A stretch of DNA of 64,000 bases from Oscillospiraceae bacterium (GTDB lineage: Bacteria; Bacillota; Clostridia; Oscillospirales; Oscillospiraceae): assembly GCA_015068425.1 (NCBI GenBank), contig SVKK01000008.1, positions 1-64,000 on the forward strand, given 5' to 3'. This document shows, piece by piece, positions 4,822 to 30,171 of the stretch. The notes beneath the pieces were generated by a model. It was given only the letters and a program-made list of their open reading frames with translations, did not search any database and was not told where the DNA came from. The first letter of the stretch is position 1, and each line of letters opens with the position of its first letter. Position numbers and translations under genes: made by a program.

Positions 4822-4838
4822 TTCACGTGCCTCCCTTC

Positions 4839-6332: not shown

Positions 6333-6470
6333 GAATTACTCTCCTCCCGCTTTAAAATTCCTTGTTTATAACATATTGTTGCGTGGTTTTTTCGCAAAAC
6401 CGCCTCTCCCCTTTGTCGGCAAGGGGCGCTTTTCCGAACCCATCCGGGGATGGATGCCCTTATAGAAATT

Positions 6471-6502
6471 TGGCCGGCGGAATAATGTTATTCCGCCGGC
6501 CA
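6471..6502. terminator. Strong hairpin between SBP and ATPase genes (attenuator/processing or partial terminator)
   Basis: tggccggcggaataatgttattccgccggcca, near-perfect palindrome; no long U-tract on the minus strand. Confidence 0.5.
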
Positions 6503-6539
6503 AGCGGTTAGTTAAAACTCAATGGGGATGAAGAATTGC

Positions 6540-7682: not shown

Positions 7683-7763
7683 TGTGTTTCCTCCTTAAGA
7701 GTTTTGTTATATAATCAGGGGTCTTCCTCCCCCATGATTATCAAAGGAATGTTTGCCCGAAAA

Positions 7764-8708
7764 TCAGGCGTTTTCGATCAGGCCACGGAAATATTTCTGG
7801 GCAATGCGGATCTGATCTTCAATATAGTCGTTATAGCCAAGAACTTTTCCGTTCTGGAAGGGCATATGGCAGAACTCATAGTTGATGTATCCGTCATAGC
7901 CGGTTTCCTTCAGAGCCTTGATAAAGGCGGGATAGTTGGTGAGAACGGGCTGAATGTGGGGATCGAAGGAGATCATATGGATGGTTCCGTCTTCATTCTC
8001 CACGAACTCGGCGTTAGCGTGGGAGAGCATCTGCATCTTGCCCACGTCGTAAACAGCTTTTGTAATGTATTCGTCACTCTGACGCTTTTCGGTCCAACCG
8101 CAGCAGGGAGCATCCAGGCAGCACTGCACCCAGGGAGAATCCACCCACTTGACCAAATCGATCATATCGGTGTACTCATCGATTATGGGATGATGGTTCT
8201 GGAGAGCCAGAATAACGCCTGCCTCCTCTGCCCATTTTGCGGCTTCCTTCAGGCAGTTGACAATGCTCAGACGAAGCTCATGATCAAGTGCTCCGTAATA
8301 TGTATGGTGCTTTCCGGTGATTTCATAGGTGGCGACGCCATCCTTCATCACGATACCGCGCCAGCAGGCAAACACACGCAGAACAGGAGCGCCAAGCTGC
8401 TTTGCCACGCGGATCTGCTCCTTCACCATAAGGAGCTCGTTTTCAATATGCTCGGGAACGATGGATGCAAAATTATTGTTTGCGGCCACAGCGCAAATTT
8501 CCAGCCCCTGCTTTGCGGCATACTCGCGGATCTCCTTGCAGCGCTTTTCATCAAGGTCAATAGGAGAGCCATGGGGGCGCTTTAAGTCGATCTCAACGCC
8601 GTCATAGCCAAATTTCTTGGCGGTGTCGATAAACTCCTCAACAGTGAGTGCGGGGCGGTCATTAAACCAGGTTCCGGAACAGGAAATGGAATACAGGCCA
8701 ACCTTCAT
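7764..8708 (-). CDS. Sugar phosphate isomerase/epimerase (AP endonuclease 2-type TIM barrel)
   Basis: 314 aa; KFGYDGVEIDLKRPHG, ALQNHHPIIDEY, GYDGYINYEF. Confidence 0.85.
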   Translation of the reverse strand: MKVGLYSISCSGTWFNDRPALTVEEFIDTAKKFGYDGVEIDLKRPHGSPIDLDEKRCKEIREYAAKQGLEICAVAANNNFASIVPEHIENELLMVKEQIRVAKQLGAPVLRVFACWRGIVMKDGVATYEITGKHHTYYGALDHELRLSIVNCLKEAAKWAEEAGVILALQNHHPIIDEYTDMIDLVKWVDSPWVQCCLDAPCCGWTEKRQSDEYITKAVYDVGKMQMLSHANAEFVENEDGTIHMISFDPHIQPVLTNYPAFIKALKETGYDGYINYEFCHMPFQNGKVLGYNDYIEDQIRIAQKYFRGLIENA

Positions 8709-8739
8709 ACTGGGGTCGCTCCTTCCTAATTATCAAAAA

Positions 8740-9864
8740 TTATTTAAGAATCTCTTCAGCGCGAACTTCGCGGTTTTCCGCAGCGGAGAGATAGAACGCA
8801 TCGATAATAGCGGCAACGGTCAAAGTTTCCTCAGGTCTTACAGCAAGAGGAGAACCGGTCAGGATATGATCCACGGCATTTTCAAAGAGATAGGAATGGC
8901 CGGGGAAGGGCTCTTCTGCGAAGCGGGCTTCCTCGGGGAACAGACGGGGCTGAACATTGGTCTGGTACTTGCCCATGGTAGTCAAAATCTCCATCTTGGG
9001 CAGCAGCAAACCGGCCTTGCTGCCTGCAAAGGACATAGAGTACTCGGGAGGCAGGTTTACAGCCCAGGAGGTCTTGAAGTTGATGCAGCAGCCGTTATCC
9101 AGACGGATATTACCTGCGGCGAATTCTTCTACCTCAAATTCTTCGGGAGAATAGGGTCTGGCATTAAACACTCCGGCAGGAGCTCCGCTTTCGGCAAGAC
9201 TTGTGATAACGCCCTGCTCATTGCGGGCAATGCGGGAGGAGGAAGTGCCGGAAATGGAGACAAAGCCGGGATTGCCCATTACCCAAAGGGCAGCATCGAT
9301 CAGGTGAACGCCCAGATCGCACAGCACGCCGCCTCCGTTGGCATCCTTTCTGTGGAAAGCGCCCCACTTGGGCACGCCGCGGCGACGAATGAGAGAAAAC
9401 TCGGAGAAATAGACATCACCGAGGACGCCATCTTCCATCATTTCCTTAGCGAACTGATATTCCTGATTATAGCGCACTACCTGGCAGGCAAAAAGCACGC
9501 GGTTTTTCTCCCGGGCATATTCAAACATTTCCTTCGCATCCGCATAGGTGAATGCGATGGGCTTTTCGCAGGCTACATGGCAGCCGTAAGACAGCGCCAG
9601 CATGGTCATCTTCTTATGTAACGCATTGGGAGTGCATACAGAAACAAGATCGGGTTTCTCCTTCTGAAGCATCTCTTCCGCATCGATATACCAGTTGGGA
9701 ATACCGTGACGCTTGGCAGTCTGCTCCGCAGAAACGGGATTAATGTCGCAAACAGCCACAAGGTCAACCTTGTCACCCAGATTGCGGTATGCAGGAATGT
9801 GGGCAGCATTGGTGATCATGCCGCAGCTGATAATAGCAACTTTCAGTTTACTTTCTTTCAACAC
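8740..9864 (-). CDS. Gfo/Idh/MocA family oxidoreductase
   Basis: 374 aa; KVAIISCGMITNAAHIPAYRNLGDKVDLVAVCDIN, CEKPIAFTYADAKEM. Confidence 0.95.
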   Translation of the reverse strand: MLKESKLKVAIISCGMITNAAHIPAYRNLGDKVDLVAVCDINPVSAEQTAKRHGIPNWYIDAEEMLQKEKPDLVSVCTPNALHKKMTMLALSYGCHVACEKPIAFTYADAKEMFEYAREKNRVLFACQVVRYNQEYQFAKEMMEDGVLGDVYFSEFSLIRRRGVPKWGAFHRKDANGGGVLCDLGVHLIDAALWVMGNPGFVSISGTSSSRIARNEQGVITSLAESGAPAGVFNARPYSPEEFEVEEFAAGNIRLDNGCCINFKTSWAVNLPPEYSMSFAGSKAGLLLPKMEILTTMGKYQTNVQPRLFPEEARFAEEPFPGHSYLFENAVDHILTGSPLAVRPEETLTVAAIIDAFYLSAAENREVRAEEILK

Positions 9865-14612: not shown

Positions 14613-15539
14613 TTAGGAGTTTTTCCCGCTGACAGCCAATATTTTGCCCTTGCCCCGGAGAAGAATTTCCTCTCCGGCATTGAGAAACGCTCCGGCGCCG
14701 GGCGCAAGAACACAGCAATTCCCATCCTGAAAGGCGCTTACTTCGCCTTCCGTGCAAAGCAGGTGGCAGAAACTGTCCTCAGGAGCTGTAAATTCGCTGT
14801 CCTTTTCCACAGTTAGTTCCCTAAGGGTGAAATATGGGCAGTCGGCAATAATTCCCTCCGCCTCATTTTTCCCCAAAGGAGCGGTGTCCACATAAGAGAG
14901 CACAGAAACCGCAAGCGCATCCTCAATATGGAGCTGACGGGGCTTTCCGTCCGCACCAAGGCGGCCGTAATCATACACCCGGTAAGTCAGATTGGAGCTT
15001 TGCTGTACCTCATAAATCAGGCAGCCGGCCCCTATGGCGTGGAGAGTTCCTGCCGGTATATAGTAACTCTCCCCCGCCTTGACCGGTACCCACCGAAGAA
15101 TCTGCTCAACAGTGTTTTCGGAAATATGCCGTTTAAATTCCTCCCGGCTGATCGGCTCCTTCACGCCGAGATAAATACCCGCTCCCGGCTGGGCATCCAG
15201 TATATGCCAAAGCTCCGTTTTGCCCCGCTGCCCCATTTTGGCAGCATATGCATCATCGGGATGCACCTGCACGGACAAGGCTTTTTGAGCATCGATAAGC
15301 TTGACCAATATGGGCGTCTCTCCGCTTTCCGCAACGCAGCTTCCTCCTGCACCGGGATTGTTTTCCAGATAACAGCGCAGGCTTTCCTCTCTGCCTTTCA
15401 GCAGAGTAAGTCCGTCAGGATGGGTGGAAAGCTCCCAGCTTTCAGCCACCACAGCGCCTTCTCCGGCTTTTCCGAAGCGCTCTTTCAAAAGAGTGCCGCC
15501 CCATATGTAGTCTTTACTTATCGGCTCCAGCAAAAACAT
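14613..15539 (-). CDS. manA: Type I mannose-6-phosphate isomerase
   Basis: 308 aa; DYIWGGTLLKERFGK, VQVHPDDAYA, GKTELWHIL, YIPAGTLHAIGAGCLIYEVQQSSNLTYRVYDYGR. Confidence 0.9.
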   Translation of the reverse strand: MFLLEPISKDYIWGGTLLKERFGKAGEGAVVAESWELSTHPDGLTLLKGREESLRCYLENNPGAGGSCVAESGETPILVKLIDAQKALSVQVHPDDAYAAKMGQRGKTELWHILDAQPGAGIYLGVKEPISREEFKRHISENTVEQILRWVPVKAGESYYIPAGTLHAIGAGCLIYEVQQSSNLTYRVYDYGRLGADGKPRQLHIEDALAVSVLSYVDTAPLGKNEAEGIIADCPYFTLRELTVEKDSEFTAPEDSFCHLLCTEGEVSAFQDGNCCVLAPGAGAFLNAGEEILLRGKGKILAVSGKNS

Positions 15540-15541
15540 AT

Positions 15542-16447
15542 TTATCCTCCGATTTGTATCTCAAGTCCCATATTTGCTCCTATGGCTATCATATCTTCCA
15601 ATTCCCCCGCCTGCATATTGGGAACGGATTCCATAGGGTAGTCCAAATCCAGTTTTTCATATTTTCCGCGCCCCAGACTGTGATAAGGAAGCAGCACATG
15701 CTTTTTAAGCCCCAGAGAAGCGGAAAAAGCCAGGCAGCGGCGCAGAACTTCCCTATCATCGTTAAAGCCCGGTATCACCGGTGTTCTCAAGGTGATATTC
15801 GCCCCTTTTTCCATCAGGAAGCGGATATTGCTTTCGATCACGGCAGCGTCCGCGCCCGTTGCTTTTTTCAAAGCTTCCGGATCGGGATGCTTATAATCCA
15901 CATAAAAGCCATCGGCATACCTTGCGGCTTCTTCCAAAACCGCCTCAGGCACAAAGGCGGTTGTCTCCAGCCACGAAGATAAGCCCCGCTCCGCGGCCAT
16001 TTTCAGCAGAGCAAGCGCCGATGGCTGCATCAGCGGTTCACCGCCGGACAATGTCAGACCGCCGCCGGTGGATTCATAATAGGCACGGTCGCGCTCTGCC
16101 ACATCCAGAATATCTCTCAGCGCCATCTCCCTGCCCGACATTGCGTTTGCCCCCACAGGGCAAATATCCACACATTTTCCGCATCCGCGGCACGCGAGCC
16201 TATCCACCGCCACTTTACCTCCGCTAAGGGAAAGGGCGGCATTTGGGCACAAGCTGACGCAAGCGCCGCAGCCAAGGCAAAGCTTTCCGTTATGGAGCAA
16301 AACGGGTCTTATGGGACGGGTCTCGGGATTGCAGCACCAGAAGCACCGCAGGGGACAGCCCTGCAGAAATACCACAGTTCGAAGACCCGGCCCATCATGG
16401 ATAGCGCTTCGCTCTACCTCGGTTACTATCAGTCTCTGATTATCCAT
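15542..16447 (-). CDS. Glycyl-radical enzyme activating protein (radical SAM with two ferredoxin clusters)
   Basis: 301 aa; GCPLRCFWC (CX3CX2C), CLGCGACVSLCP and CRGCGKCVDICP. Confidence 0.95.
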   Translation of the reverse strand: MDNQRLIVTEVERSAIHDGPGLRTVVFLQGCPLRCFWCCNPETRPIRPVLLHNGKLCLGCGACVSLCPNAALSLSGGKVAVDRLACRGCGKCVDICPVGANAMSGREMALRDILDVAERDRAYYESTGGGLTLSGGEPLMQPSALALLKMAAERGLSSWLETTAFVPEAVLEEAARYADGFYVDYKHPDPEALKKATGADAAVIESNIRFLMEKGANITLRTPVIPGFNDDREVLRRCLAFSASLGLKKHVLLPYHSLGRGKYEKLDLDYPMESVPNMQAGELEDMIAIGANMGLEIQIGG

Positions 16448-18710
16448 ACAGCACCCTGCTCATAAGCTCCTGCTGAATATCGGATTCAAGGTTTACAAAC
16501 ACTGCGGAGAAGCCGGAAACACGAACGATCAAATCCCGATACTCATCGGGACGCTCCACCGCGGCCTCAAGCACGCCACGGTCCACAACGGTGACCATCA
16601 GGTGGCAGCCGCCCCGGTCAAAGTAAACCCGGAACATCTGCTTTATAAGCTCACGGCGACCGTTAAAGAAGTCCGGAGTGAATTTAATATTCTGCACGCT
16701 TCCGCCATGAAGAGCTGCGTCAAAGCGGGAGAGTGAATTGAGCATGGCGGTGGGACCGTTCTGGTTTGCGCCACCCTGAGGGTTATTGGCGGGGTTCATA
16801 AACTGACCGTCCCGGCGTCCGTCATAGGAAGCTGATGTTTTTCTTCCCCACTCGGTGTTGAGCTGGTTATTGCTTATGACGATCAGGTAATACTGCATTC
16901 CGGCTTCAATGCCGCGGTCGCGGACTCCGTTGGCCACGAAGCGGAACACTCTGTCCGCCATATCGTCGGCACAAGGATCGTCGTTGCCGTATTTGGGGCA
17001 CTCCCAGAGCTGACGGCGGAGCCATTCCTGCCCCGCAAAATTCTCCTTGGCCGCGTCACGCAGCTGCGGCAGGGAAACTATTTTCCGCTCATAAACCAGC
17101 TGCTCAATGGCGGTGAGAGAATCGGAAACATTGATATTGCCATAGGTTTCGTTGGTGCCGCCCAGATAGCGGATGCCTCCGTCCAGCACAGCCAGCCCGC
17201 GTCCCAGACAGTCCTCCATAAGGATGCTGGTAAACAGGAAGGAGACCTCCTGATTCATAATTTCATAAGAACGGGTCTGGGCAGCCACGGAAAGATCCAG
17301 ATAATGCTCCACGAGGCGTCGATACTGGTCAAAAAGTGCCTCAAAGCTATCCAGCTTTTCCGCAGGCAGAAGCTCAACTCCGTCGCTCTTATCAATTCCG
17401 TCCTTGGGGTCAATGCCGCCGTTAATTGCCATCTGAAGTATCTTCAGCAGATTGATGCAGGTATTGGGTGTGCCCGTGCTCTGTCCCTGAATAACAAACT
17501 CCCCACAGCCGAAGGGCACATACTGCTCCGCCGTCTTCTCGTCCACGCGCATAGCGTGCATAACGGCGGGGATGTTCACATCGTCATTATAGAGAGTGGG
17601 ATATGTAGCGCCCTTTCCGATGGTATCCAAGGCGGCGTCCATTATGTCCTCAGGGGTGTTTTTGTCGAAACGCAGAGTGAACTGAGGCTCAACATAGCGG
17701 CACTCGCTTGCCACCTTCATGGCGATGCGGGTGAATGTATCCGCCGCCTCGCTGTCGCGTCTGCCCCGTCCGCCCACGATGATTCTTCCGTTAACGGTTG
17801 TTCTGCGGTTTTCTATCATTGTCCAGAGGGATTTGAGGAGACGGAATGCCTCCGCCTCGTCTATTCGTCCCTCATCAAGATCCTTCTGCAGGAAGGGACC
17901 CAGAACATCATCCATACGTCCGTAATTGATGACTCCCGCAAGAAGGGCATAGAGCCAGAAAAGCTGAAGAGCCTCAAAAAAGGTTTCGGGACGGTCATTT
18001 TTGATTTTTCCAAGGGCATGAATCATACGCTGCAGATCCCTGCGGCGCTGCTCTCCTGCCCCATTGAGCAGGGCTGCGGCCTTATCCGCAAGGGCATCGG
18101 CGCAGTCCCCGAAAAGGTCAAGGCAGCTCAGGCAGGCGCGATAAAATGGCTTATCACCCTTCTGCTCCTGCAAAGAGTGAATCCTGCTGCGTATTCCACC
18201 TATTCCAAGATCCATCAGGCTGCGGTAATCCAGCATCATGCCGGAAAGGCGGGCAGTGGCGATGAGAGGATAGTCGCAGTCAATAAACATACCAACGATA
18301 TCATCCTTCAGCGCGTCCTTGCAGTACTTGGTTTTGACATCGTGGTCAAGCCAATAGCTATAAAGGGCGTCAACCCTGTAATGCTCCTCTTCCGGTATCT
18401 GCTGCTTGAATTTTGTCAGCTTATTGAACACACAGTAATGTCCCACACCGCCCACAGATGTTACGCAGCCAAAGCCAATAGGGAGAAAATCCAGACGGCC
18501 AGCAAACAGGTCTTCCTCCTGAATAGAGCGGAAGAGTTTGGGATAGAGCACCCTTAGACAGGCGATTTCCCTTTCCTCCTTGCTTTTCCCGCTGTTTTTA
18601 TGAGCTTCGGTATAACGTTCCATCAGGGAAAGCTGCTCCATAGGCGGCAACTCGGGAGGGATTTTAATGCTGACCTCTACGTTTTGAGCAGTTTCGGCAT
18701 GGAAAGCCAT
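16440..18710 (-). CDS. Glycyl radical enzyme (PFL-like family, function unknown)
   Basis: 756 aa; thiyl-cysteine/Glu loop VPFGCGEFVIQGQ (Cys codon 17505-17507, Glu codon 17499-17501), C-terminal glycyl motif RVSGFSAVFVN (Gly codon 16512-16514); overlaps its activase start by 8 bp. Confidence 0.93.
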   Translation of the reverse strand: MAFHAETAQNVEVSIKIPPELPPMEQLSLMERYTEAHKNSGKSKEEREIACLRVLYPKLFRSIQEEDLFAGRLDFLPIGFGCVTSVGGVGHYCVFNKLTKFKQQIPEEEHYRVDALYSYWLDHDVKTKYCKDALKDDIVGMFIDCDYPLIATARLSGMMLDYRSLMDLGIGGIRSRIHSLQEQKGDKPFYRACLSCLDLFGDCADALADKAAALLNGAGEQRRRDLQRMIHALGKIKNDRPETFFEALQLFWLYALLAGVINYGRMDDVLGPFLQKDLDEGRIDEAEAFRLLKSLWTMIENRRTTVNGRIIVGGRGRRDSEAADTFTRIAMKVASECRYVEPQFTLRFDKNTPEDIMDAALDTIGKGATYPTLYNDDVNIPAVMHAMRVDEKTAEQYVPFGCGEFVIQGQSTGTPNTCINLLKILQMAINGGIDPKDGIDKSDGVELLPAEKLDSFEALFDQYRRLVEHYLDLSVAAQTRSYEIMNQEVSFLFTSILMEDCLGRGLAVLDGGIRYLGGTNETYGNINVSDSLTAIEQLVYERKIVSLPQLRDAAKENFAGQEWLRRQLWECPKYGNDDPCADDMADRVFRFVANGVRDRGIEAGMQYYLIVISNNQLNTEWGRKTSASYDGRRDGQFMNPANNPQGGANQNGPTAMLNSLSRFDAALHGGSVQNIKFTPDFFNGRRELIKQMFRVYFDRGGCHLMVTVVDRGVLEAAVERPDEYRDLIVRVSGFSAVFVNLESDIQQELMSRVLYG

Positions 18711-18712
18711 AA

Positions 18713-19462
18713 TCAGTGTGCACTCCTTTCAGCATCGCGCCAATTGGTTTTATAGCAGCCCATCAGATCAGTAAATCTCTTGGTGATCAGGTGGGGGCGG
18801 GTGATGGCGCTTCCCACCACAACAGAATGCGCGCCAAGATAAAGACACTTGATCGCATCCTCGGGAGAGTAGATGTGACCCTCCATAATCATATATACCT
18901 TATCGCCGAAATCACGGCACATACGGGCGAATTCACGCAGGTTGGGTTCTTCAATATGCTTGGTCTGCTCGGTGTATCCGTAAAGAGTGGGGCCTACAAT
19001 GTCGGCACCAAGTTCCACCGCTCTGGCAGCCTCTTCATAGGTGGATACATCCGCAAAGAACATAGCGTCGGGGAATTCCTTCATAGCCTGGGGCAGCAGC
19101 TCCCACGCGGGTCGACCCTCCGCAGTTATCTGATCGGTGCAGTCCAGAGCAATTATCTCCGCGCCCGCTTCATAGACCTCACGGACAGCCTCCATGGTTG
19201 GAGTGATGAACACATCCGTGCCGGCCTTCCACTGTTTATAAAGACCGATAACAGGCAAATCCACAACTTTCTTGATATCGCGAATCTGCTCGGGAGAATT
19301 TGCGCGAATGCCAACCGCGCCGCCCCAAACAGCTGCCTCTGCCATTTTTACGTGCATATCGGGGGTAGAAATGGGATCATCATGCTGCACCTGGCAGGAC
19401 ACGATCAAACCATTTTTGAAAGACTCTAATATTGCTTTTTTTCTGGGATCATTGGTTTTCAT
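18713..19462 (-). CDS. NanE-like putative N-acetylmannosamine-6-phosphate 2-epimerase
   Basis: 249 aa; GLIVSCQ, AVGIRAN, PVIGLYKQ, IIALDCTDQ, DVSTYEEA, AHSVVVGSAITRP. Confidence 0.85.
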   Translation of the reverse strand: MKTNDPRKKAILESFKNGLIVSCQVQHDDPISTPDMHVKMAEAAVWGGAVGIRANSPEQIRDIKKVVDLPVIGLYKQWKAGTDVFITPTMEAVREVYEAGAEIIALDCTDQITAEGRPAWELLPQAMKEFPDAMFFADVSTYEEAARAVELGADIVGPTLYGYTEQTKHIEEPNLREFARMCRDFGDKVYMIMEGHIYSPEDAIKCLYLGAHSVVVGSAITRPHLITKRFTDLMGCYKTNWRDAERSAH

Positions 19463-19525
19463 GGGGACTGACTCCTCCCTTTTTTATTTATCGATTTAAT
19501 TTCATACTAAATTACATTTTTGCAA

Positions 19526-19554
19526 AGCTGCCCATGCCGAAGCATGGACAGCCT
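19526..19554 (-). terminator. Hairpin between the DeoR gene and nanE-like gene
   Basis: agctgcccatgc-cgaa-gcatggacagcct stem; U-tract stronger on the + strand, so assignment is uncertain. Confidence 0.4.
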
Positions 19555-19564
19555 TATTTTTCTC

Positions 19565-20329
19565 TCAGACAAACACTATGTTTTCCGGGAAATCTCCATC
19601 CGGCTTCGGACCGTTGATATACACCTTTTCAAAGAGATCAACACCCGCAAAGCGGAAAAGACCCACCTTGCTGAGCTTGCTGCTGTCCGCCAAAAGATAA
19701 CTGTGCTCCGCGTTTCTCATGGCAACCTGCTTCAGCCGCACGCACTCCATATCCGTCGCATAGACAATATTATTGGTGGGGTTTAAACCCATACAGCCGA
19801 TGAAGGCGCGGTTAAAGCCGAACTGCTCCAGATTGCTCTCTGTCATAGGACCCACGATCATCTGGTCCCGGGGAACTACTCGGCCACCCAGAGAAAAGAC
19901 CTCTGCCTTGGTGTCCGGAGATACCCGCTGGAGCACCACATTGTTGCAGGTGACGATACGAATAGGTTTTGAAAACAAAACGGAGATCATGGGCGCAATG
20001 CTTGTGCCCATATCAAGAAAAATGCATTCTCCCGGCTGCACCTCTTCTGCCGCCGCCCGGGCCACAGCAATCTTCTCATCATGATTGATATTATGCTTTG
20101 CGCGTATGGACAGCTCCACATCAAAGTCCGAGCCGTCCCCATCGGGGCGCATCGCTCCGCTTTGCACCCGGCGCAGCTTGCCCTGAGCTTCCAGCTTCTC
20201 AAAGTCGCGCCTCACCGTGGCTTCAGAAACGCCCAATTCCCGGGCGATGCTCTTATAGTCCACAACCGCCGACTCGTTGAGTCGCTTCAAAATATATAAA
20301 CTTCTCGCTGACGCTATCATCGCGCTCAC
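19565..20329 (-). CDS. DeoR/GlpR family transcriptional regulator
   Basis: 254 aa; N-terminal HTH VVDYKSIARELGVSEATVRRDFEKLEAQGKLRRVQSGA and DeoR sensor domain. Confidence 0.95.
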   Translation of the reverse strand: MSAMIASARSLYILKRLNESAVVDYKSIARELGVSEATVRRDFEKLEAQGKLRRVQSGAMRPDGDGSDFDVELSIRAKHNINHDEKIAVARAAAEEVQPGECIFLDMGTSIAPMISVLFSKPIRIVTCNNVVLQRVSPDTKAEVFSLGGRVVPRDQMIVGPMTESNLEQFGFNRAFIGCMGLNPTNNIVYATDMECVRLKQVAMRNAEHSYLLADSSKLSKVGLFRFAGVDLFEKVYINGPKPDGDFPENIVFV

Positions 20330-20333
20330 CCTT

Positions 20334-21329
20334 TCATTGGCGCAGATTTTTGAAATCGATGCCCGTTTGTGAACGTATCTCGTCCATCAAAACCAGCACC
20401 TGCTCCGTCACTTGATTATAGCTTTCCCAAGGGCGGCTTCCTTCCGCGGAAGCTGCCGCGAAATCCATAAAAGAGCGTATTTCATGCTTCATGTTGAAAA
20501 ATTCCGGGTCCGGGTCATGGTATATAACCCGACGGGATTTATCCCTTCCCACAAAAACGATGTCCTTGGGGTTTGTTATGCTGTCAATAAGCAGCGTTCC
20601 CTGCTCGCCCTGAATTTCATTGCTGCGTCGGCTGTCGGAAACTTTGGACCAGCTCAGCTCCGCCAGCATTTCAGGATAAACGCAGAGAGCTCCGCCCTGG
20701 CTGTCAAGGCCGTTATCCAGCCTGTTGGCCACGGCGCTGAGCTTCTCGGGTACGCCGAAAAGCGCCACCAGCGCGTGTATGCAGTAAACTCCGATATCCA
20801 TCAGGGAGCCGTTGCAAAAAGCGGGATTGAAGGCATTTTCCACCACGCCCCGCTTATACGCGTCATAGCGGGAGGAATATTGGCAGTAGGTAAAAGATAC
20901 CCGTCTGACCTTCCCCACTTCCTCAATAGCCTTTTTCAGAATAGCAAAACCGGGCATAAATGCAGGACGCATAGCTTCAAGAAGCACAAGTCCCTTTTCC
21001 TCCGCCAGAGAGCGCAGACGGGCAAAGGTTTCCCTGTCGGGGCAGGCAGGCTTTTCCAGCAGCACGTGTTTTCCCGCCCGGAGCATCAGCTCAGCCTGCT
21101 GAGCATGAAAGAGATTTGGCGAGGAAATATAAACTCCGTCCACATCTTCTCCGGCCGCAAGCTCACTGAGATCCGTTACGCACCGGACGCCGGGACGTTC
21201 TCCGGCAAAAGCCTTTGCCCTTTCCACATTCCGGGAATATACAGCCGCAAGAGAGAATCCCTCAAGACTCTCTCCTGCGCTGAGAAATTCCCGGGCGATA
21301 AAGTTTGTTCCTATAGTTCCAAAACGCAT
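20334..21329 (-). CDS. Gfo/Idh/MocA family oxidoreductase
   Basis: Start revised from 21377 to 21329 (MRFGTIGTNFIAREFL) so it does not overlap the ROK gene; VLLEKPACPDRETFARL. Confidence 0.9.
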   Translation of the reverse strand: MRFGTIGTNFIAREFLSAGESLEGFSLAAVYSRNVERAKAFAGERPGVRCVTDLSELAAGEDVDGVYISSPNLFHAQQAELMLRAGKHVLLEKPACPDRETFARLRSLAEEKGLVLLEAMRPAFMPGFAILKKAIEEVGKVRRVSFTYCQYSSRYDAYKRGVVENAFNPAFCNGSLMDIGVYCIHALVALFGVPEKLSAVANRLDNGLDSQGGALCVYPEMLAELSWSKVSDSRRSNEIQGEQGTLLIDSITNPKDIVFVGRDKSRRVIYHDPDPEFFNMKHEIRSFMDFAAASAEGSRPWESYNQVTEQVLVLMDEIRSQTGIDFKNLRQ

Positions 21330-21333
21330 AACA

Positions 21334-22281
21334 TTACATTCTGTCCAGATATGCAGCGCCAATGGTGCCGGCCGCATTACCCAAGCTTGCCTTTATGATG
21401 GGGGGCGCGCCGATAATATCATAGGCGAACACATACTTCTTTACCTTTTCACGAATGGGGTCAAGGAGATAATCGCCCTGAGCGGACAAACCGCCGCCAA
21501 TCAGGAAAACCTCGGGACGGAAAATATTTATGAGACCGCCAATGCCGTTTGCCAGATATTCTTCATACTGATCCAGAACAGCCAGCGCGGCGGGGTCATT
21601 TTCATGGGCGCAGTCGAAAATAATGCGTCCGTTGAGTTTTCCTCCGTTTTCCTTTGCCCGGGCATGGAGCAGAGAATCGGGATAAAGCTTCATTGCTTCC
21701 TCGGCCTGCTGAATCAATGCGGTGACGGAAGCATAGGCCTCAAGGCAGCCGGGAATTCCGCAGGTGCACATGTTGCCCTGATGCATTACAGGGGCATGAC
21801 CAAGCTCTGCTCCCATACCGTCTCCGCCTACAAAAAGCTTTCCGCCCAGAATAACGCCGCCGCCCACACCGGTGCCCAGTGTCAGCATAATAACGCTCTG
21901 GCAGCCTTTGGCAGCACCTGCCACCGCTTCGCCGATGATGGCGCAGTTTGCATCGTTTCCGATATATACAGGCACGGGCAGATGCTTTTCCAGTTCCTCA
22001 CGAAGAGGCATATCTCTCCAGTTGGTATTGTTGGAGAAAACCAGCCTGCCTGTATTGGGGTTGATGCAGCTGGGAGTTCCTACGCCAACGCAGGGAAAAT
22101 CAGAAACCTTCAGTCCTGCCATAGCGGCAACCGTTTCCGCGGCCTTGGCCATATCCGCAACAACCTGCTCAAATCCCTCGCCGGTGGGCTGGGTATGGCT
22201 GAACACCACCTCGTTGTTTTCATCCACGACACCCGCCTTGATGGCAGTGCCGCCCAGATCAATTCCGATACGGTATTGCAT
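21334..22281 (-). CDS. ROK family sugar kinase
   Basis: 315 aa; GIDLGGTAIKAGVVD, GTGVGGGVI, zinc motif CTCGIPGCLEAYAS. Confidence 0.93.
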   Translation of the reverse strand: MQYRIGIDLGGTAIKAGVVDENNEVVFSHTQPTGEGFEQVVADMAKAAETVAAMAGLKVSDFPCVGVGTPSCINPNTGRLVFSNNTNWRDMPLREELEKHLPVPVYIGNDANCAIIGEAVAGAAKGCQSVIMLTLGTGVGGGVILGGKLFVGGDGMGAELGHAPVMHQGNMCTCGIPGCLEAYASVTALIQQAEEAMKLYPDSLLHARAKENGGKLNGRIIFDCAHENDPAALAVLDQYEEYLANGIGGLINIFRPEVFLIGGGLSAQGDYLLDPIREKVKKYVFAYDIIGAPPIIKASLGNAAGTIGAAYLDRM

Positions 22282-22305
22282 AGTTTTTCCTCCGTTTTTT
22301 CCGAC

Positions 22306-23208
22306 TTATACGCCCACGCGCTTGAGGACGCTGTCGGTGAAGCGCTTGGCGCGCTCAATGTCGCCCTCATCCAGATGCTCAATGATCAGGGGAATATTGG
22401 GATGCTCTTCAGCCAGACGCTTAACATAGAGCTCATAGTTCAGTATTCCCAGACCGGCAGCAGGCAGCTCAACGCCGCCGGAACCGCGGAAGGAGTGGGA
22501 AGCATCGGCATCAATATCGGCATGCTTTTCACCGGTATCGGTGGCCAGCTTGATATCCTTGGCATGAGCTATCTTCATATAGGGGCTCAGACGGTCAAAT
22601 ATCTTGTTGATAGTTCCGTCCACATCCTTGATGGTGTTCTCATCAAAATAGTTGGTGGGATCGCAGATAAGTCCCAGATGCTTGCTGTTTACATCCTTGA
22701 ACATACGCTCAACCTGCTCCACAGAGCCGATAACGTTGTTTACATAGTTTTCAACGATGAAGGTGGAGCCCCACTGGCCTGCAAATTCAGCCAGATCGCG
22801 GATGATCTCAATGGTCTCATCGTATACCTTGGGACTGGCGTTCATATCATGCCATACCCAGTCGCTTTCAAGGTTATAGGTGCCGGTCTCGCTGCCTACA
22901 TAGGGGCAGCCCAGATCGCGTGCATAGCGGAGCATCATCTTAAGATAGTTGATGTTGCGCTTGCGGATATCGGGGTCGGGATGGATGAAGTTGGTGTAGC
23001 CGGAAACTGCGATTACGGGAAGATTTGCATCACGGAAGGCATCGCGGATCTCGTGAGCCTTCTTCTCGGTGAGGGGTTCATAGGCAGCGTCAAAATCCTT
23101 GAAGGATACATCCAGCTGTACACAGCCGAAGTCGCTGGCTTTGATGCGGCGAATGACCTCGTCCATCTTATAGGGATAATAACCGGTGAAAATACCAACG
23201 TTTATCAT
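22306..23208 (-). CDS. Sugar phosphate isomerase/epimerase (AP endonuclease 2-type TIM barrel)
   Basis: Start revised to MINVGIFTGYYPYK at 23208; GCVQLDVSF, FIVENYVNNV, ICDPTNYFD, IIEHLDEGDIERA. Confidence 0.85.
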   Translation of the reverse strand: MINVGIFTGYYPYKMDEVIRRIKASDFGCVQLDVSFKDFDAAYEPLTEKKAHEIRDAFRDANLPVIAVSGYTNFIHPDPDIRKRNINYLKMMLRYARDLGCPYVGSETGTYNLESDWVWHDMNASPKVYDETIEIIRDLAEFAGQWGSTFIVENYVNNVIGSVEQVERMFKDVNSKHLGLICDPTNYFDENTIKDVDGTINKIFDRLSPYMKIAHAKDIKLATDTGEKHADIDADASHSFRGSGGVELPAAGLGILNYELYVKRLAEEHPNIPLIIEHLDEGDIERAKRFTDSVLKRVGV

Positions 23209-23228
23209 TATTAAATCCTCCTTAAATA

Positions 23229-24341
23229 TCAATCGGTGGGCAGCAGCAGCTCACTGAGAGCAACTGTGCGCTTTTCGGCAATAGACTTATAGCAGGCTTC
23301 CACGCAGGCGATGGTGTGGACATTATCGCGGGCGGAGATTTCAGGCTCCGCGCCCTGCTCAACAGCCCGGAGCAGCTGAGCCATAGTGCCCTCAAACGCA
23401 TCGGGAAACCATACGGTATCCCACTTGGGCTCTATCCACTGATGGGGATAGCGCTTGGAAGTGAAGCGCAGAGTGGAGGGGCAGCGCTCGGGATACTTGG
23501 GCCAGCCGATGGTGCCCTGAGCCATACCCTCGGTGCCTTCCACACGCCACTTGATGTAAATATCCTTCTCGCAGGGCTCTTCGGGCCATGCCCAAACATC
23601 GTCAAGAGAGGTGGCCATAATGCCGTTATCATACTTATAGGTGAACTGCACGATACCGTCCACATGCTCAAACTTGGTGCGGGGGTCGGTGCGGCAAACA
23701 GCGGTGATCTCGGCGGGGTCACCGAACATAAAGCGGAAAATATCAACATGGTGAATGCCCATGCCGAAGATCTCCAGCTTGTCATACTCCTGCAGGAAGG
23801 TCTGCCAGTGGGGGATTGCGCGCATTTCAATGGTGGCAAGAACGGGCTCGCCAAGCTCACCGGTATCCAGCAGATACTTCAGCGCACGCATGGACTGGTC
23901 GCAGCGCATATTGGAGTTAACTGCGATAGCCTTGCCGTTTTCTTCGCCCAGACGGACTATCTCGCGGGCATTTTCAATGGACATTTCAATGGGTTTCTGG
24001 CAGAGAATGCCCTTCAGGTTGGGGCATTTTACCGCCTCGCGGACGATATCAAGCTGCTGATCGGGAGGGTATGCAATGTCAAGAATCTCGATGGAATCAT
24101 CCTTCAGCATTTCCTGCCAGGTATCGTATACCTTGGGAATATTATGACGCTCGGCCACAGCCTTTGCATTGGCGGGAGTGCGGGAGGCAATGGCAACAGG
24201 GTTGAAGCCTGCAGCACGGTAGGACTCCAGATGGCAGTCAGCCATAATAAAGCCTGAGCCGATGCAGCCTATGCGCCAATCCTTGCGGACGGGCGACTCA
24301 TATTTTGTCGCGGCAATCAGTTTTTCCTTTATGTTTTCCAT
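23229..24341 (-). CDS. Gfo/Idh/MocA family oxidoreductase
   Basis: 370 aa; RIGCIGSGFIMADCHLESYRAAGFNPVAIASR, CQKPIEMSIENAREIV. Confidence 0.95.
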   Translation of the reverse strand: MENIKEKLIAATKYESPVRKDWRIGCIGSGFIMADCHLESYRAAGFNPVAIASRTPANAKAVAERHNIPKVYDTWQEMLKDDSIEILDIAYPPDQQLDIVREAVKCPNLKGILCQKPIEMSIENAREIVRLGEENGKAIAVNSNMRCDQSMRALKYLLDTGELGEPVLATIEMRAIPHWQTFLQEYDKLEIFGMGIHHVDIFRFMFGDPAEITAVCRTDPRTKFEHVDGIVQFTYKYDNGIMATSLDDVWAWPEEPCEKDIYIKWRVEGTEGMAQGTIGWPKYPERCPSTLRFTSKRYPHQWIEPKWDTVWFPDAFEGTMAQLLRAVEQGAEPEISARDNVHTIACVEACYKSIAEKRTVALSELLLPTD

Positions 24342-24367
24342 GCGCTCATTCTCCTCGATTTTTTAAT

Positions 24368-25135
24368 TTATTTACCCTCACGGGCTGCCAGAACGGCGGG
24401 GAATTCCATATCATCGGTAACCTCGGGCAGAACCAGAGTGCCGGCAGCCTCACGCTCGCGGGCGTCAGCCATCATGGTCTCGGTGCGGGTGCAGCCGAAT
24501 CGGGTGCCGCCAACAGCCTTTACCATCAGCGCGTCATCCAGCTTGCGAACGCCGCCTGCAGCCTTGACCTGCATATTGGGAGCGGTGTTGGCGCGCATAA
24601 GCTTCAGGTCATGAATGGTTGCGCCGGAAGGAGCGTAGCCGGTGGAGGTCTTGGTGAAATCAGCGCCTACGCGGGTGCAAATCTCGCAGGCCTTCTTTTT
24701 CTGCTCGTCGGTCAGATAAGCATTCTCAAAGATAACCTTGACGATAACATTCTTCTCATGGGCTGCATCCACAACAGCCTTCAGATCCTTCTCAACATAA
24801 TCATAGTCGCCGGAGAGGAGACGTCCGATATTCAGCACAACGTCAACTTCCACGCAGCCCTGCTCGATGGCCATCTTGGTTTCAAAAACCTTGACCTCGG
24901 TCAGGTTGGAACCGTGGGGGAAGCCGATAACAGTGGTGATAAGAACATCGCTGCCCTTCAGAATCTCGGATGCGAACTCAACATCGCAGGGGCGCAGACA
25001 TACGGAAATGCATTTATATTCCTTTGCGATTTCGCAACCTCTTTTGATTTCGTCCAGAGTAAAGGTGGGATTGAGCAGAGAATGGTCGATCATATCGGCG
25101 ATATCCTGAGCTTTTACTTTGTTCATAACGATCAT
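24368..25135 (-). CDS. deoC: Deoxyribose-phosphate aldolase family (DeoC-like)
   Basis: 255 aa; IADMIDHSLLNPTFT, DFTKTSTGYAPSGAT, Schiff-base segment QVKAAGGVRKLDDAL. Confidence 0.9.
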   Translation of the reverse strand: MIVMNKVKAQDIADMIDHSLLNPTFTLDEIKRGCEIAKEYKCISVCLRPCDVEFASEILKGSDVLITTVIGFPHGSNLTEVKVFETKMAIEQGCVEVDVVLNIGRLLSGDYDYVEKDLKAVVDAAHEKNVIVKVIFENAYLTDEQKKKACEICTRVGADFTKTSTGYAPSGATIHDLKLMRANTAPNMQVKAAGGVRKLDDALMVKAVGGTRFGCTRTETMMADAREREAAGTLVLPEVTDDMEFPAVLAAREGK

Positions 25136-25218
25136 TTCCTTTCAAAATTATGTATTGATTTTTCACCCCCGTCATCCCTCTTCGGGACGTAACCGGGAAA
25201 CATATTTGCTACGGAAAT

Positions 25219-25247
25219 ATTGTAGCATCTTTTTCATTTATTTTCAA
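25219..25247 (-). promoter_or_regulatory. Predicted sigma-A promoter for the minus-strand catabolic operon
   Basis: Minus strand TTGAAA (25247-25242), 17-bp spacer, TACAAT (25224-25219). Confidence 0.55.
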
Positions 25248-25266
25248 TACTTTTCAATTCTTTTCA
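25231..25266. promoter_or_regulatory. Four-fold 10-bp-phased TTTTCA operator-like array
   Basis: ttttcattta ttttcaatac ttttcaattc ttttca: TTTTCA at 25231, 25241, 25251 and 25261, exactly 10 bp apart, overlapping the minus promoter -35. Confidence 0.65.
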
Positions 25267-25292
25267 TCATTTGCAAATCCACCTAGTTTCTC

Positions 25293-25321
25293 TTGCATTT
25301 AATTGCAACATAAGGTATACT
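25293..25321 (+). promoter_or_regulatory. Predicted sigma-A promoter for the plus-strand catabolic operon
   Basis: TTGCAT (25293-25298), 17-bp spacer, TATACT (25316-25321). Confidence 0.6.
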
Positions 25322-25401
25322 TATTCTATCTGAAAACTTGCAAAAGCTTTCACGAAAAATGATAAAAATTAAAAACAATAAATACTAAGGGGGATCTTTT
25401 T

Positions 25402-26547
25402 GTGAAACGATTCAAGGCTTGCGTAATAGGCGTCGGATTTATTGGTGCCGCCCATATTGAGGCACTCCGCCGTCTCGGTAATGTTGACGTTGTTGCCGTT
25501 GCCGATTTTCCCAGCGGAGCCGCTAAGGCTGAAGCACACTGCGTACCCAGAGGCTACAATGACTACAAGGAAATGCTGGACACCGAAAAGCCCGATGTTG
25601 TCCATATCTGCACTCCCAATGCCTCCCATTATGAAATGGCAATGTATGCCATGGAGCACGGCATCGCCGTTGTCTGCGAGAAGCCTCTTACCACCACTGT
25701 TGAGCAGGCCAGAGAGCTGGTTGCCTGCGCCAAGAAGTACGGTATTGTCAACGCCGTAAACTTCAACTGCCGCTGGTATCCTCAGGTTATGCAGACCCGC
25801 TCCATGATAGAGCGCGGCGAGGTTGGAAAAATCTACAGCGTCCACGGCAGCTATCTCCAGGACTGGCTCTTCCTCGACACCGACTACAGCTGGCGTCTTG
25901 AGCCCGAAGTGAGCGGCGAATCCCGCGCCTTCGGCGACATCGGCTCTCACTGGATAGACATGGTGGAAAGCGCCGCCGGTCTCCGCGCCACCGAGGTTTT
26001 CGCAGATTTCGCCACCTTCCATAAGACCCGCAAAAAGCCCCTTAAGCCCGTGGACACCTATTCCGGCATGGCTCTTCGCCCCGAGGATTACGCAGAAGTC
26101 CCCATCGATACCGAGGACTATTGCGCAGTTTTGTTCCACTTTGATAACGGCGCTATCGGCTCCTGCGTCATCAACCAGGTATTCGCAGGCCGCAAGAACC
26201 AGATCACCTATAACATCAGCGGCAGCAACTGCTCTCTGCGCTGGGACAGCGAAGACAGCAACGACCTTTGGGTAGGCCGCCGCGAAGGTTACAACCAGAA
26301 AATCCCCAAGGATCCTTCCCTGCTTGACCCCATGGCCGCCTCCGTTAACGGCTATCCCGGCGGACATGTTGAAGGCTTCCCCGACACCTTCAAGCAGAAC
26401 TTCAAGGCCATTTATGCCGCTATTGAAAAGGGCGACACAAGCCGCGGCCTCTTCGCAACCTTTGAGGACGGCCTCCGCGAGATGACTCTGTGCGACGCCA
26501 TCATTCGCTCCTCCAAAGAAGGTCGCTGGGTCAAGGTTGAGGAGTAA
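25402..26547 (+). CDS. Gfo/Idh/MocA family oxidoreductase (GTG start)
   Basis: 381 aa; KACVIGVGFIGAAHIEALRRLGNVDVVAVAD, CEKPLTTTVEQARELV; RBS-like aaggggg upstream. Confidence 0.95.
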   Translation: MKRFKACVIGVGFIGAAHIEALRRLGNVDVVAVADFPSGAAKAEAHCVPRGYNDYKEMLDTEKPDVVHICTPNASHYEMAMYAMEHGIAVVCEKPLTTTVEQARELVACAKKYGIVNAVNFNCRWYPQVMQTRSMIERGEVGKIYSVHGSYLQDWLFLDTDYSWRLEPEVSGESRAFGDIGSHWIDMVESAAGLRATEVFADFATFHKTRKKPLKPVDTYSGMALRPEDYAEVPIDTEDYCAVLFHFDNGAIGSCVINQVFAGRKNQITYNISGSNCSLRWDSEDSNDLWVGRREGYNQKIPKDPSLLDPMAASVNGYPGGHVEGFPDTFKQNFKAIYAAIEKGDTSRGLFATFEDGLREMTLCDAIIRSSKEGRWVKVEE

Positions 26548-26552
26548 GGCCT

Positions 26553-27401
26553 ATGTTTAAGATTGCTACCCTTGCCGATTGGTTCGGCGTAGGTCTTATA
26601 GAAGGTATCCGCACCTCCCAGCGCTGCGGCGCCGAAGGCGTTCAGGTTTATGCCGCGGACGAATTCGATCCCCGCACCGTTTCCAAGGACATGATCGCAA
26701 CTGTCCGCGATACCGCCCGCAGCTGCGGACAGACTGTCACCGCTCTTTGCGGCGAGCTTGGCGGCTTCGGTTTTGAAAAGGCCGAGGATAATCCTGACAA
26801 GCTGAGTTATCTCAAAAAGGTCATCGACCTTGCGGACATGGTTGACTGCCGCATCGTCACCACCCACATCGGCGTTGTTCCCGGTGATAAATCCGATCCC
26901 CGCTACCAGATTATGCTGGATGCCATGGGCGAAGCCGGCGAATACGCCCGCAGGATGGGCTCCTATGTGGCTGTTGAAACCGGCCCCGAGGCTATTGCCA
27001 CCCTCCGCGGTTTCCTTGAAAAGGTAGGCGGCGGTGTCGGAATAAACTATGACCCCGCAAACCTTGTAATGGTAGGCGCCGACGATGAAGTAAGCGCTGT
27101 TAAAACCGCCGGAGATCTCATCGTCCACACCCACGCAAAGGACGGTCATTCCCTCAAAAAAATCGCCCCCGCCGATTTCTACCATAACTTTGCCGAGGGC
27201 GGTCTTGAATGGGCAGCCACCTGCGGAGTATGCGTTGAAACTCCCCTGGGAGAGGGCTCTGTACGCTGGATCCCCTATCTGAACGCACTGAAGGAAATCG
27301 GTTATGACGGTTATCTCACCATCGAACGCGAGGTTAAAAACGGCGCGGAAGATATCCGTATGGCTGTTCGCTTCCTGCAGGATACACTTAAAACTTTATA
27401 A
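26553..27401 (+). CDS. Sugar phosphate isomerase/epimerase (AP endonuclease 2-type TIM barrel)
   Basis: 282 aa; GAEGVQVYAADEFD, VAVETGPEA, GINYDPANLVMVG, GYDGYLTIERE. Confidence 0.88.
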   Translation: MFKIATLADWFGVGLIEGIRTSQRCGAEGVQVYAADEFDPRTVSKDMIATVRDTARSCGQTVTALCGELGGFGFEKAEDNPDKLSYLKKVIDLADMVDCRIVTTHIGVVPGDKSDPRYQIMLDAMGEAGEYARRMGSYVAVETGPEAIATLRGFLEKVGGGVGINYDPANLVMVGADDEVSAVKTAGDLIVHTHAKDGHSLKKIAPADFYHNFAEGGLEWAATCGVCVETPLGEGSVRWIPYLNALKEIGYDGYLTIEREVKNGAEDIRMAVRFLQDTLKTL

Positions 27402-27424
27402 TTTATTTTAGGAGGAACTTTATT

Positions 27425-28339
27425 ATGATGAAGCTTGGTCTCCATTCCGCTATTCTCCCCGACGAGAGCTTTGAGCAGGTTATCGACTACTGCGCCAAGG
27501 TTGGCTTTGAATGCGTTGAAGTTTGCTGCTGGCCCAAGGGCAAGGCTGTCCGCCGCTATGCAGGCATTACCCACATCGACCTTAACGAGTGCGACAACGA
27601 AAAGCTGCTCTACTATAAGAAGTATGCCGAAGATAAGGGCGTAGCCATCGCCTCTCTCGGTTATTACCCCAATGCAATGGACGCCGATCAGGAAGCCGCA
27701 GATGTTGCCATCAAGCACATCTACCGCCTTATCGACGCTGCCGCATTTATGGGCGTTAAAACCGTAACCACCTTCATCGGTAAGGACAAGAATAAGACCG
27801 TTGAAGAAAATCTGGATAAGTTTGAAGTTGTCTGGGCTCCCATCGTGGCCTATGCCGAAGAGAAGGGCGTTCGCATCGGTATCGAAAACTGCCCCATGCT
27901 CTACACCGTTAACGAGTGGCCCGGCGGCAATAACCTTGCCTGCTCTCCCGCCATCTGGCGCGAGATGTTCCGCCGCATCCCCTCCCCCGCTCTCGGTCTG
28001 GCACTTGACCCCTCTCACCCCTATCTGACCGGCGCCAGCTACACCAAGCCCGTATATGAGTTCAAAGACCGCATCTATCACATCCACTTCAAGGATATCA
28101 AGATCTATCAGGACAAGCTGGATGATTACGGCTGCTTCTCTTACCCCACTCTGTGGCATTCTCCCAAGCTTCCCGGCATGGGCGGCGTAGACTTCGGCGC
28201 ATTTGTCTCCGCCCTCAACGACATCCGTTACACCGGTTATGCCGTCATCGAGGTTGAGGACAAGGCATTTGAAGGCTGCATTGAAGACGTTCGCTCCGGC
28301 ATTGAGCAGAGCTACCGCTTCATGCGTCAGTACATATAA
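27425..28339 (+). CDS. Sugar phosphate isomerase/epimerase (AP endonuclease 2-type TIM barrel)
   Basis: 304 aa; GFECVEVCCWPKG, GIENCPMLY, LGLALDPSHPYLTG, YHIHFKDIK, GYAVIEVEDKAFEG. Confidence 0.88.
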   Translation: MMKLGLHSAILPDESFEQVIDYCAKVGFECVEVCCWPKGKAVRRYAGITHIDLNECDNEKLLYYKKYAEDKGVAIASLGYYPNAMDADQEAADVAIKHIYRLIDAAAFMGVKTVTTFIGKDKNKTVEENLDKFEVVWAPIVAYAEEKGVRIGIENCPMLYTVNEWPGGNNLACSPAIWREMFRRIPSPALGLALDPSHPYLTGASYTKPVYEFKDRIYHIHFKDIKIYQDKLDDYGCFSYPTLWHSPKLPGMGGVDFGAFVSALNDIRYTGYAVIEVEDKAFEGCIEDVRSGIEQSYRFMRQYI

Positions 28340-28369
28340 TCCATAAATAATAATTCAGGAGGATTTCCC

Positions 28370-29449
28370 ATGAGCAAGACTAAAGTTGCCGTTCTTGGCT
28401 GCGGTTTTATCTCCGAGATACATATTACCTCTTATAAGCGTTTCGTTCATGACGCTGAAGTTGTTGCCGTTTATTCCCATAATCTTGACAAGGCTCAGGC
28501 CTTTGCCGAGAAAATGGGTGTTCCCGCCGCTTATGACGATGTTGATAAGCTTCTGGCAGAATGTGAATGCGATATAGTGGACATTTGCCTTCCCAACTTC
28601 CTGCACCACGGCGTTTGCCTCAAGGCCGCAAAGGCCGGCAAGCACATAATCGTGGAAAAACCCCTTTGCCTTTCCATTAAGGAGGCCGATGAAATGATCG
28701 CCGCCTGCGAGGAAAACGGCAAGCTGCTTATGTACGCCGAGGAGCTTTGCTTCGCTCCCAAGTATGAGCGCGTCCGCGCTATTGTTGAAAGCGGCGCAGT
28801 TGGCGATCTTTATATGCTCAAGCAGGCCGAGAAGCACTCCGGCCCCCACAGCCGTTGGTTCTATGAATCCGATAAGTCCGGCGGCGGCGTTATGATGGAT
28901 ATGGGTTGCCACGCCATCGCCTGGTTTATGTGGATGCTCAAGGGCGCCACTCCCAAGTCTGTATACGGCAATTTCATGCACGTATACCATGACACCGACG
29001 GCGAAGACCATTCCGTCACTCAGCTGGAATTCGACCTCAACGGCAAAACCGTTCTTTGCATAGGCGAGGACAGCTGGGTCAAGCACGGCGGTATGCAGGA
29101 CTGCATTGAGGTTTACGGCGAGAAGGGCGTTTGCTACTCCGACCTGTTCCAGGGCAACTCCTCCCAGATGTACAGCCTTGAGGGTTATGATTACGCCAGC
29201 GAAAAGGCCGGCGCCACCAACGGCTGGACCTTCCCCATCTTTGAAGAGGCCTTCAACCAGGGTTATCCTCAGGAGCTCGGCCATTTTGTGGACTGCGTCC
29301 GCAACGGCAAAAAGCCCGTCTCCGACGGCAAGCTGGGCAAGGCTGTTCTGGAAGTTATCCACGCAGCTTATACCTCCGCCAAGGAAGGCCGCAAGGTTGC
29401 TTTGCCCTATAAGTCCGACGCTGCAAAGCCTGTGGATAACTGGAGATAA
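28370..29449 (+). CDS. Gfo/Idh/MocA family oxidoreductase
   Basis: 359 aa; KVAVLGCGFISEIHITSYKRFVHDAEVVAVYSHN, VEKPLCLSIKEADEMI. Confidence 0.95.
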   Translation: MSKTKVAVLGCGFISEIHITSYKRFVHDAEVVAVYSHNLDKAQAFAEKMGVPAAYDDVDKLLAECECDIVDICLPNFLHHGVCLKAAKAGKHIIVEKPLCLSIKEADEMIAACEENGKLLMYAEELCFAPKYERVRAIVESGAVGDLYMLKQAEKHSGPHSRWFYESDKSGGGVMMDMGCHAIAWFMWMLKGATPKSVYGNFMHVYHDTDGEDHSVTQLEFDLNGKTVLCIGEDSWVKHGGMQDCIEVYGEKGVCYSDLFQGNSSQMYSLEGYDYASEKAGATNGWTFPIFEEAFNQGYPQELGHFVDCVRNGKKPVSDGKLGKAVLEVIHAAYTSAKEGRKVALPYKSDAAKPVDNWR

Positions 29450-29454
29450 GAGCT

Positions 29455-30171
29455 ATGCTCCGTTTTCCCAATGACAGTGAACTGGGCAGCTATGTGGCAG
29501 ACCGCCTGGCTGAAATTCTATCCGATAAACCGAACGCTACATTTTGTATCGCTGCCGGCACGTCTTCATTCCCTGTTTTCGAGGCCTTGAAGGCACGGGT
29601 AAAATCCAGTGAACTCTCTTTTGCCAAGGCAAACTTTTTTGCAATGGACGAATGGTGCGGTTTACCTCAGGATGCAGACGGCGCTATGGCGGATTTCCTC
29701 CGCCGCCACTTCCTCAATGAAATGGATTTCGGAAACATCTTCCTCTTTGACGGCATGGCAGACCCCCAAAGCGAATGCGAGCGTGCGGAGCAGTTTCTCG
29801 CCGAGTGCGGAGGTCTCGACGCGGTGGTGTTCGGCATTGGCGTCAACGGCCACGTTGCTCTCAACGAACCCGGAGTTGACCCCACGCTGCGAACCCACGT
29901 TGCGCAGGTTGCTCCCGTAACTGCCACAGTTGCCCAAAAATATTTCCGGCAGGAAGCTCCCCCACTGACTCAGGGAGTTTCCATGGGCATCGGAAACACC
30001 CTTGATGCAAAAGCTCTGTTCCTCGTTGCAAACACCCCGGCAAAGCGGAGTGCGGTGGAAGCCATTGAAGAGCTGACCCGCGCCGGAAAGCCCAGCCGCG
30101 ATGTTCCCGCTTCATTTATCGCAGCTATGCCTCAAGCGCAGTTTCTGGTCACAGAAGCTGTATTCGCCTGA
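29455..30171 (+). CDS. Glucosamine-6-phosphate deaminase/isomerase-like (NagB family)
   Basis: 238 aa; FCIAAGTSSFPVFEAL, NFFAMDEWCGL, FGIGVNGHVALNEPG, QGVSMGIGNTLDAKALFLVA. Confidence 0.85.
   Translation: MLRFPNDSELGSYVADRLAEILSDKPNATFCIAAGTSSFPVFEALKARVKSSELSFAKANFFAMDEWCGLPQDADGAMADFLRRHFLNEMDFGNIFLFDGMADPQSECERAEQFLAECGGLDAVVFGIGVNGHVALNEPGVDPTLRTHVAQVAPVTATVAQKYFRQEAPPLTQGVSMGIGNTLDAKALFLVANTPAKRSAVEAIEELTRAGKPSRDVPASFIAAMPQAQFLVTEAVFA

Follow-up and report, generated by a model that had tools for sequence, protein, structure and literature searches.

A phased array of four TGAAAA boxes as a predicted DeoR-family operator on the promoter of a sugar-breakdown operon in an Oscillospiraceae bacterium

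The locus considered here occupies positions 14613-30171 of the window (the whole 64-kb stretch of Oscillospiraceae DNA that was analysed), and is conserved in one other genome. It encodes four Gfo/Idh/MocA oxidoreductases, three AP_endonuc_2 proteins, one deoC-type aldolase, NanE, a ROK kinase and a glucosamine isomerase-like protein, which together would form a sugar pathway that is present in only two genomes among those searched. Part of the locus is arranged as two divergent operons. The leftward operon encodes, in order, the deoC-type aldolase, a Gfo/Idh/MocA oxidoreductase, an AP_endonuc_2 protein, the ROK kinase, a second oxidoreductase and a DeoR-family regulator, and the rightward promoter faces two more oxidoreductases, two AP_endonuc_2 proteins and the glucosamine-6-phosphate isomerase-like protein. 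The genes of most concern here are the following.

24368..25135, minus strand: deoC-type aldolase (TIGR00126), first gene of the leftward operon
19565..20329, minus strand: DeoR-family regulator (PF08220, PF00455), sixth gene of the leftward operon and proposed binder of the array described below
25402..26547, plus strand: Gfo/Idh/MocA oxidoreductase, first gene of the rightward operon (ortholog in locus L039 at 83%)

The minus strand also carries a glycyl radical enzyme (16440-18710) and its activase (15542-16447), the former scoring far below the cut-offs of the NCBIfam glycyl radical models (at best 323 of 678 bits). In addition, a sugar-type ABC transporter with two permeases, an ATPase and a periplasmic binding protein lies at 2750-9864 on the minus strand, in a region that includes a further oxidoreductase/AP_endonuc_2 pair and has no pair of TGAAA boxes upstream.

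The second copy of the divergent locus is found in another Oscillospiraceae MAG (genome G401; locus L039, JAQXJQ010000004.1), with proteins at 75-88% identity, and the rest of the leftward operon lies on a separate contig of that genome (L084) in the same gene order, with a DeoR that is 75% identical. The genus set of the window holds two genomes only and that of G401 holds 42, and G401 thus represents another genus; the second genome in the window's genus set is without the locus. Searches with the aldolase in 401 genomes of the family and in the 42 of the genus of L039, and with DeoR in 396 genomes of the order and 358 of the class, returned no further copy. Aldolase homologs at 63-66% identity (L040-L043) were considered as orthologous loci and set aside, since their neighbourhoods are different and the array is absent, as was an Anaerostipes DeoR (39%) beside another deoC (L085), where there is no TGAAA pair. 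Adjoining one of the deoC-type homologs, in a Clostridia MAG, is a gene for a small protein resembling a bacterial microcompartment shell protein, as judged from its translation (L041, 980-1270).

Directly after deoR, both genomes have a strong hairpin (window 19510-19556, minus strand; L084:4430-4475), TGTCCATGC...GCATGGGCA, with a folding energy of -24.6 kcal/mol and a z of -5.2 in the window and a z of -3.5 in L084. It looks like an internal terminator or a processing site ahead of nanE, and is followed by a lone TGAAA box.

Between the divergent operons, the hexamer TTTTCA begins at 25231, 25241, 25251 and 25261, giving an array of exact 10-bp spacing that spans 36 bp (25231-25266). Read on the minus strand, that of the leftward operon, the boxes are TGAAAA and are separated, in order, by GAAT, GTAT and TAAA. 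The boxes and the predicted promoters are as follows.

25261..25266, minus strand: box 1, TGAAAA, at about -54 to -49 of the expected leftward start (TGAAAA in L039)
25251..25256, minus strand: box 2, TGAAAA, at about -44 to -39 of the expected leftward start (TGAAAG in L039)
25241..25246, minus strand: box 3, TGAAAA, overlapping the leftward -35 hexamer (TGAACA in L039)
25231..25236, minus strand: box 4, TGAAAA, in the leftward -35/-10 spacer (TGAAAA in L039)
25219..25247, minus strand: leftward promoter TTGAAA-17-TACAAT with an extended -10 (TGC), from the promoter scan (TTGAAC-17-TATAAT with TG in L039)
25293..25321, plus strand: rightward promoter TTGCAT-17-TATACT (both hexamers and the spacing conserved in L039)

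The original prediction had described four TTTTCA boxes at exact 10-bp spacing, and the exact positions, a mismatch search and shuffles all agree with that description. When up to three mismatches are allowed, the four-box pattern occurs in the window only as the array and its own shifted register, and in none of 100 shuffles. A word-free test, which accepts any hexamer with at least three different letters in four copies at a period of 8-12, found no array when the intergenic region was dinucleotide-shuffled 5000 times, and the array is the sole fourfold repeat of an identical hexamer with such a period in the real 64 kb. Pairs of the form TGAAA-N5-TGAAA are likewise confined to the array, with no second exact pair in the 64 kb, and a pattern search of the genome outside the array yielded weak two-mismatch triplets only. 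Among other genomes of the family, five have the array at one mismatch or fewer, as compared with two for a control pattern, and the contexts are unrelated where looked at. The 84 exact matches in viral contigs are scattered among 2.9 million contigs and were treated as background. In another genome of the family, a small HTH_17 gene is preceded by a promoter resembling TTGACA/TATAAT, over which TGAAA repeats lie (L056, 580-700); these repeats form a phased array that is unrelated to the one described here.

The position of the array relative to the leftward promoter bears out the earlier claim that it overlaps a minus-strand -35 element, as the promoter scan finds TTGAAA-17-TACAAT with a TG extended -10, and the third and fourth boxes lie over the predicted -35 and spacer in the window and in L039 alike. 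For the proposed rightward promoter, the evidence is divided: the -35, the -10 and the 17-bp spacing are kept in L039 where much other intergenic sequence is not, but TTGCAT-17-TATACT is too far from consensus and falls below the threshold of the scan. Its -35 begins 26 bp beyond the end of the array, so that the expected rightward start lies about 62-97 bp downstream of the array, and comparison of the window with L039 revealed neither the array nor a second conserved site over this promoter. Further sites had been put forward, namely two palindromes (25269-25278 and 25293-25308) and the boxes at 25331-25358; they are not conserved in L039 (for 25293-25308, beyond the -35 hexamer), the same being true of candidate boxes at 25331-25370, and the best of the palindromes and 25331-25358 boxes scores 17 bits versus 27-28 for pairs within the array. 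The suggestion that both arms are controlled is not supported by this layout, in which the array overlaps the leftward promoter only and sits at a distance from the rightward one. Control of the rightward arm by the array is possible as judged from the sequence.

The array in L039, TGAAAAGAAATGAAAGGTATTGAACATAAATGAAAACGGTGTTATAAT, likewise consists of four boxes at the same 10-bp phase, and occupies the same place on the -35, the spacer and the extended -10. From the array through the -10, 42 of 51 bases are identical between the two genomes, and the L039 boxes match TGAAA at 19 of 20 positions, as opposed to a maximum of 16 in 5000 shuffles. The core TGAA is kept in 8/8 boxes of the two genomes, while the A-tract is broken in the L039 boxes TGAAAG and TGAACA. 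The original prediction had named loss of the 10-bp phasing upstream of orthologous loci as evidence that would count against it, and in L039 the phasing is preserved.

As for the protein that binds the array, DeoR is the sole regulator among the genes of the conserved block, where no other transcription factor was found, and a search of the window's own genome gave a single clear DeoR-type HTH besides one match at the cut-off. The HTH is nearly invariant between the two species, with an identical recognition helix and an identical segment SEATVRRDFEKLE; the sensor domain is more variable. Several features of DeoR-family operators can be recognized at the locus, namely short direct repeats at 10-11 bp periodicity (PMC3870299), a site that overlaps either the promoter or the 5' UTR of the operon under control (PMC8579813), conservation of the array in the one ortholog available, and a DeoR gene that lies within the controlled locus and has been retained along with it. 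The single other species in which this operon turned up has retained the array, which argues that the array is a landing pad for DeoR. The proposal of a regulatory operator, for which the locus DeoR is the likeliest binder, is strengthened by the retained phasing, the co-conservation of DeoR and the likeness to an architecture verified by EMSA, and the array is very probably the operator of the locus's own DeoR-family repressor, which would silence the leftward operon.

We infer that DeoR is the array binder, and that repression, release by an effector and any effect on the rightward arm would follow a scheme in which at least two DeoR subunits line up along the same face of the double helix, with one WTGAA box read by each HTH at every turn. 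Once bound, the protein would mask the leftward promoter at its -35 hexamer and spacer, RNA polymerase would be blocked, and the deoC...deoR operon would be silenced. By blocking this promoter DeoR would repress its own operon, a form of negative autoregulation. A sugar or sugar-phosphate intermediate of the pathway would presumably release DeoR, and repression may extend to the rightward operon through this nucleoprotein complex, located at about -62 to -97 relative to its expected start. The full version of this scheme, with a multi-subunit DeoR at one box per turn controlling both divergent operons of an anaerobic sugar pathway that has yet to be described, by occlusion leftward and at a distance rightward, is tentative and somewhat doubtful. 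The pathway in this two-operon reading comprises several Gfo/Idh/MocA oxidoreductases, sugar isomerase-like proteins, the deoC-type aldolase and the glycyl radical enzyme.

Tracts of A4-A5 at 10-bp phase are the classical pattern of DNA curvature, and UP elements sit at about -40 to -54. The array could be an intrinsic element of this type, with phased A-tracts that curve the DNA and serve as an UP element to boost the leftward promoter, no specific repressor being involved: its own tracts are A4-A5 with that phase, boxes 1-2 lie in the UP-element range just given, and, as in phased A-tract/UP-element promoters, AAAA recurs every 10 bp at and upstream of the -35. Such an element is unlikely, however, as comparison of the window with L039 does not reveal conservation of A-tracts rather than of the sequence core; in the ortholog, box 2 has only AAA left of its tract and box 3 only AA, and the array runs on into the -35/-10 spacer, which is not expected of an UP element. 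Retention of TGAA in all eight boxes where the A-tract is not kept argues for protein recognition over plain A-tract bending. That protein might be a regulator encoded elsewhere (for instance, of the AraC, LysR or response-regulator type), possibly acting as an activator, and a LysR gene is indeed present at 49725-50624. AraC-type activators too use direct repeats, at 21-bp periodicity (PMC3870299), but the array repeats four times at 10 bp, not twice at 21 bp, and is placed over the core promoter instead of further upstream. Moreover, the LysR gene is outside the conserved block, and DeoR alone among regulators travels with the array, making an elsewhere-encoded binder quite improbable.

Other genomes of the family do have occasional repeats of TGAAAC or CGTGGTGAAA at unrelated sites, as might be imagined if the array were a product of chance or a decaying minisatellite without function. 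This reading is already contradicted by the orthologous conservation and is scarcely credible, given that both the phase and the position on the promoter are conserved in a species of another genus, and given the shuffle tests. Furthermore, the bases between boxes differ from unit to unit, and the array is thus not a simple tandem repeat.

On the DeoR operator reading, a rare regulator belonging to a sugar-breakdown operon of a gut bacterium gains a clean predicted operator that is open to testing, and the array is usable as a marker for finding co-regulated genes of the locus. The array would be a further case of a switch type already known elsewhere. Motifs of the DeoR-family regulator RhaR are imperfect direct repeats with 10-11 bp periodicity, and the RhaR of Chloroflexus aurantiacus binds, as shown by EMSA, a synthetic 38-bp region with four tandem sites of consensus TCGAAA, from which it is released by L-rhamnulose (PMC3870299). 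The two operators share four tandem sites (in 36 bp here and about 38 bp there), a near-identical core ((A/T)TGAAA here and TCGAAA there), and a position upstream of an operon for sugar catabolism in which the regulator itself is encoded. They differ in that the core has TG here and CG there, the sugar pathway is a different one, and the array of the window is predicted from sequence. The four-box form in two species, together with this EMSA-backed precedent from another phylum, suggests that tandem operators with one box per turn are a general binding mode of the DeoR family.

In Caldicellulosiruptor, sites of DeoR and LacI family regulators overlap promoter elements or sit in 5' UTRs, from which the authors infer repression (PMC8579813). 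The array resembles the sites of other RhaR groups (PMC3870299) and of Caldicellulosiruptor AxgR (PMC8579813) in consisting of direct repeats that lie over promoters or in 5' UTRs, whereas its box sequence, being regulator-specific, sets it apart from other DeoR-family repressors, and the motifs of the other RhaR groups are described as two repeats, as opposed to four here (PMC3870299). The closeness of box number, length and core to those of the C. aurantiacus RhaR operator argues that the array, judged on every feature testable here, belongs with the DeoR-family tandem operators and would work like them.
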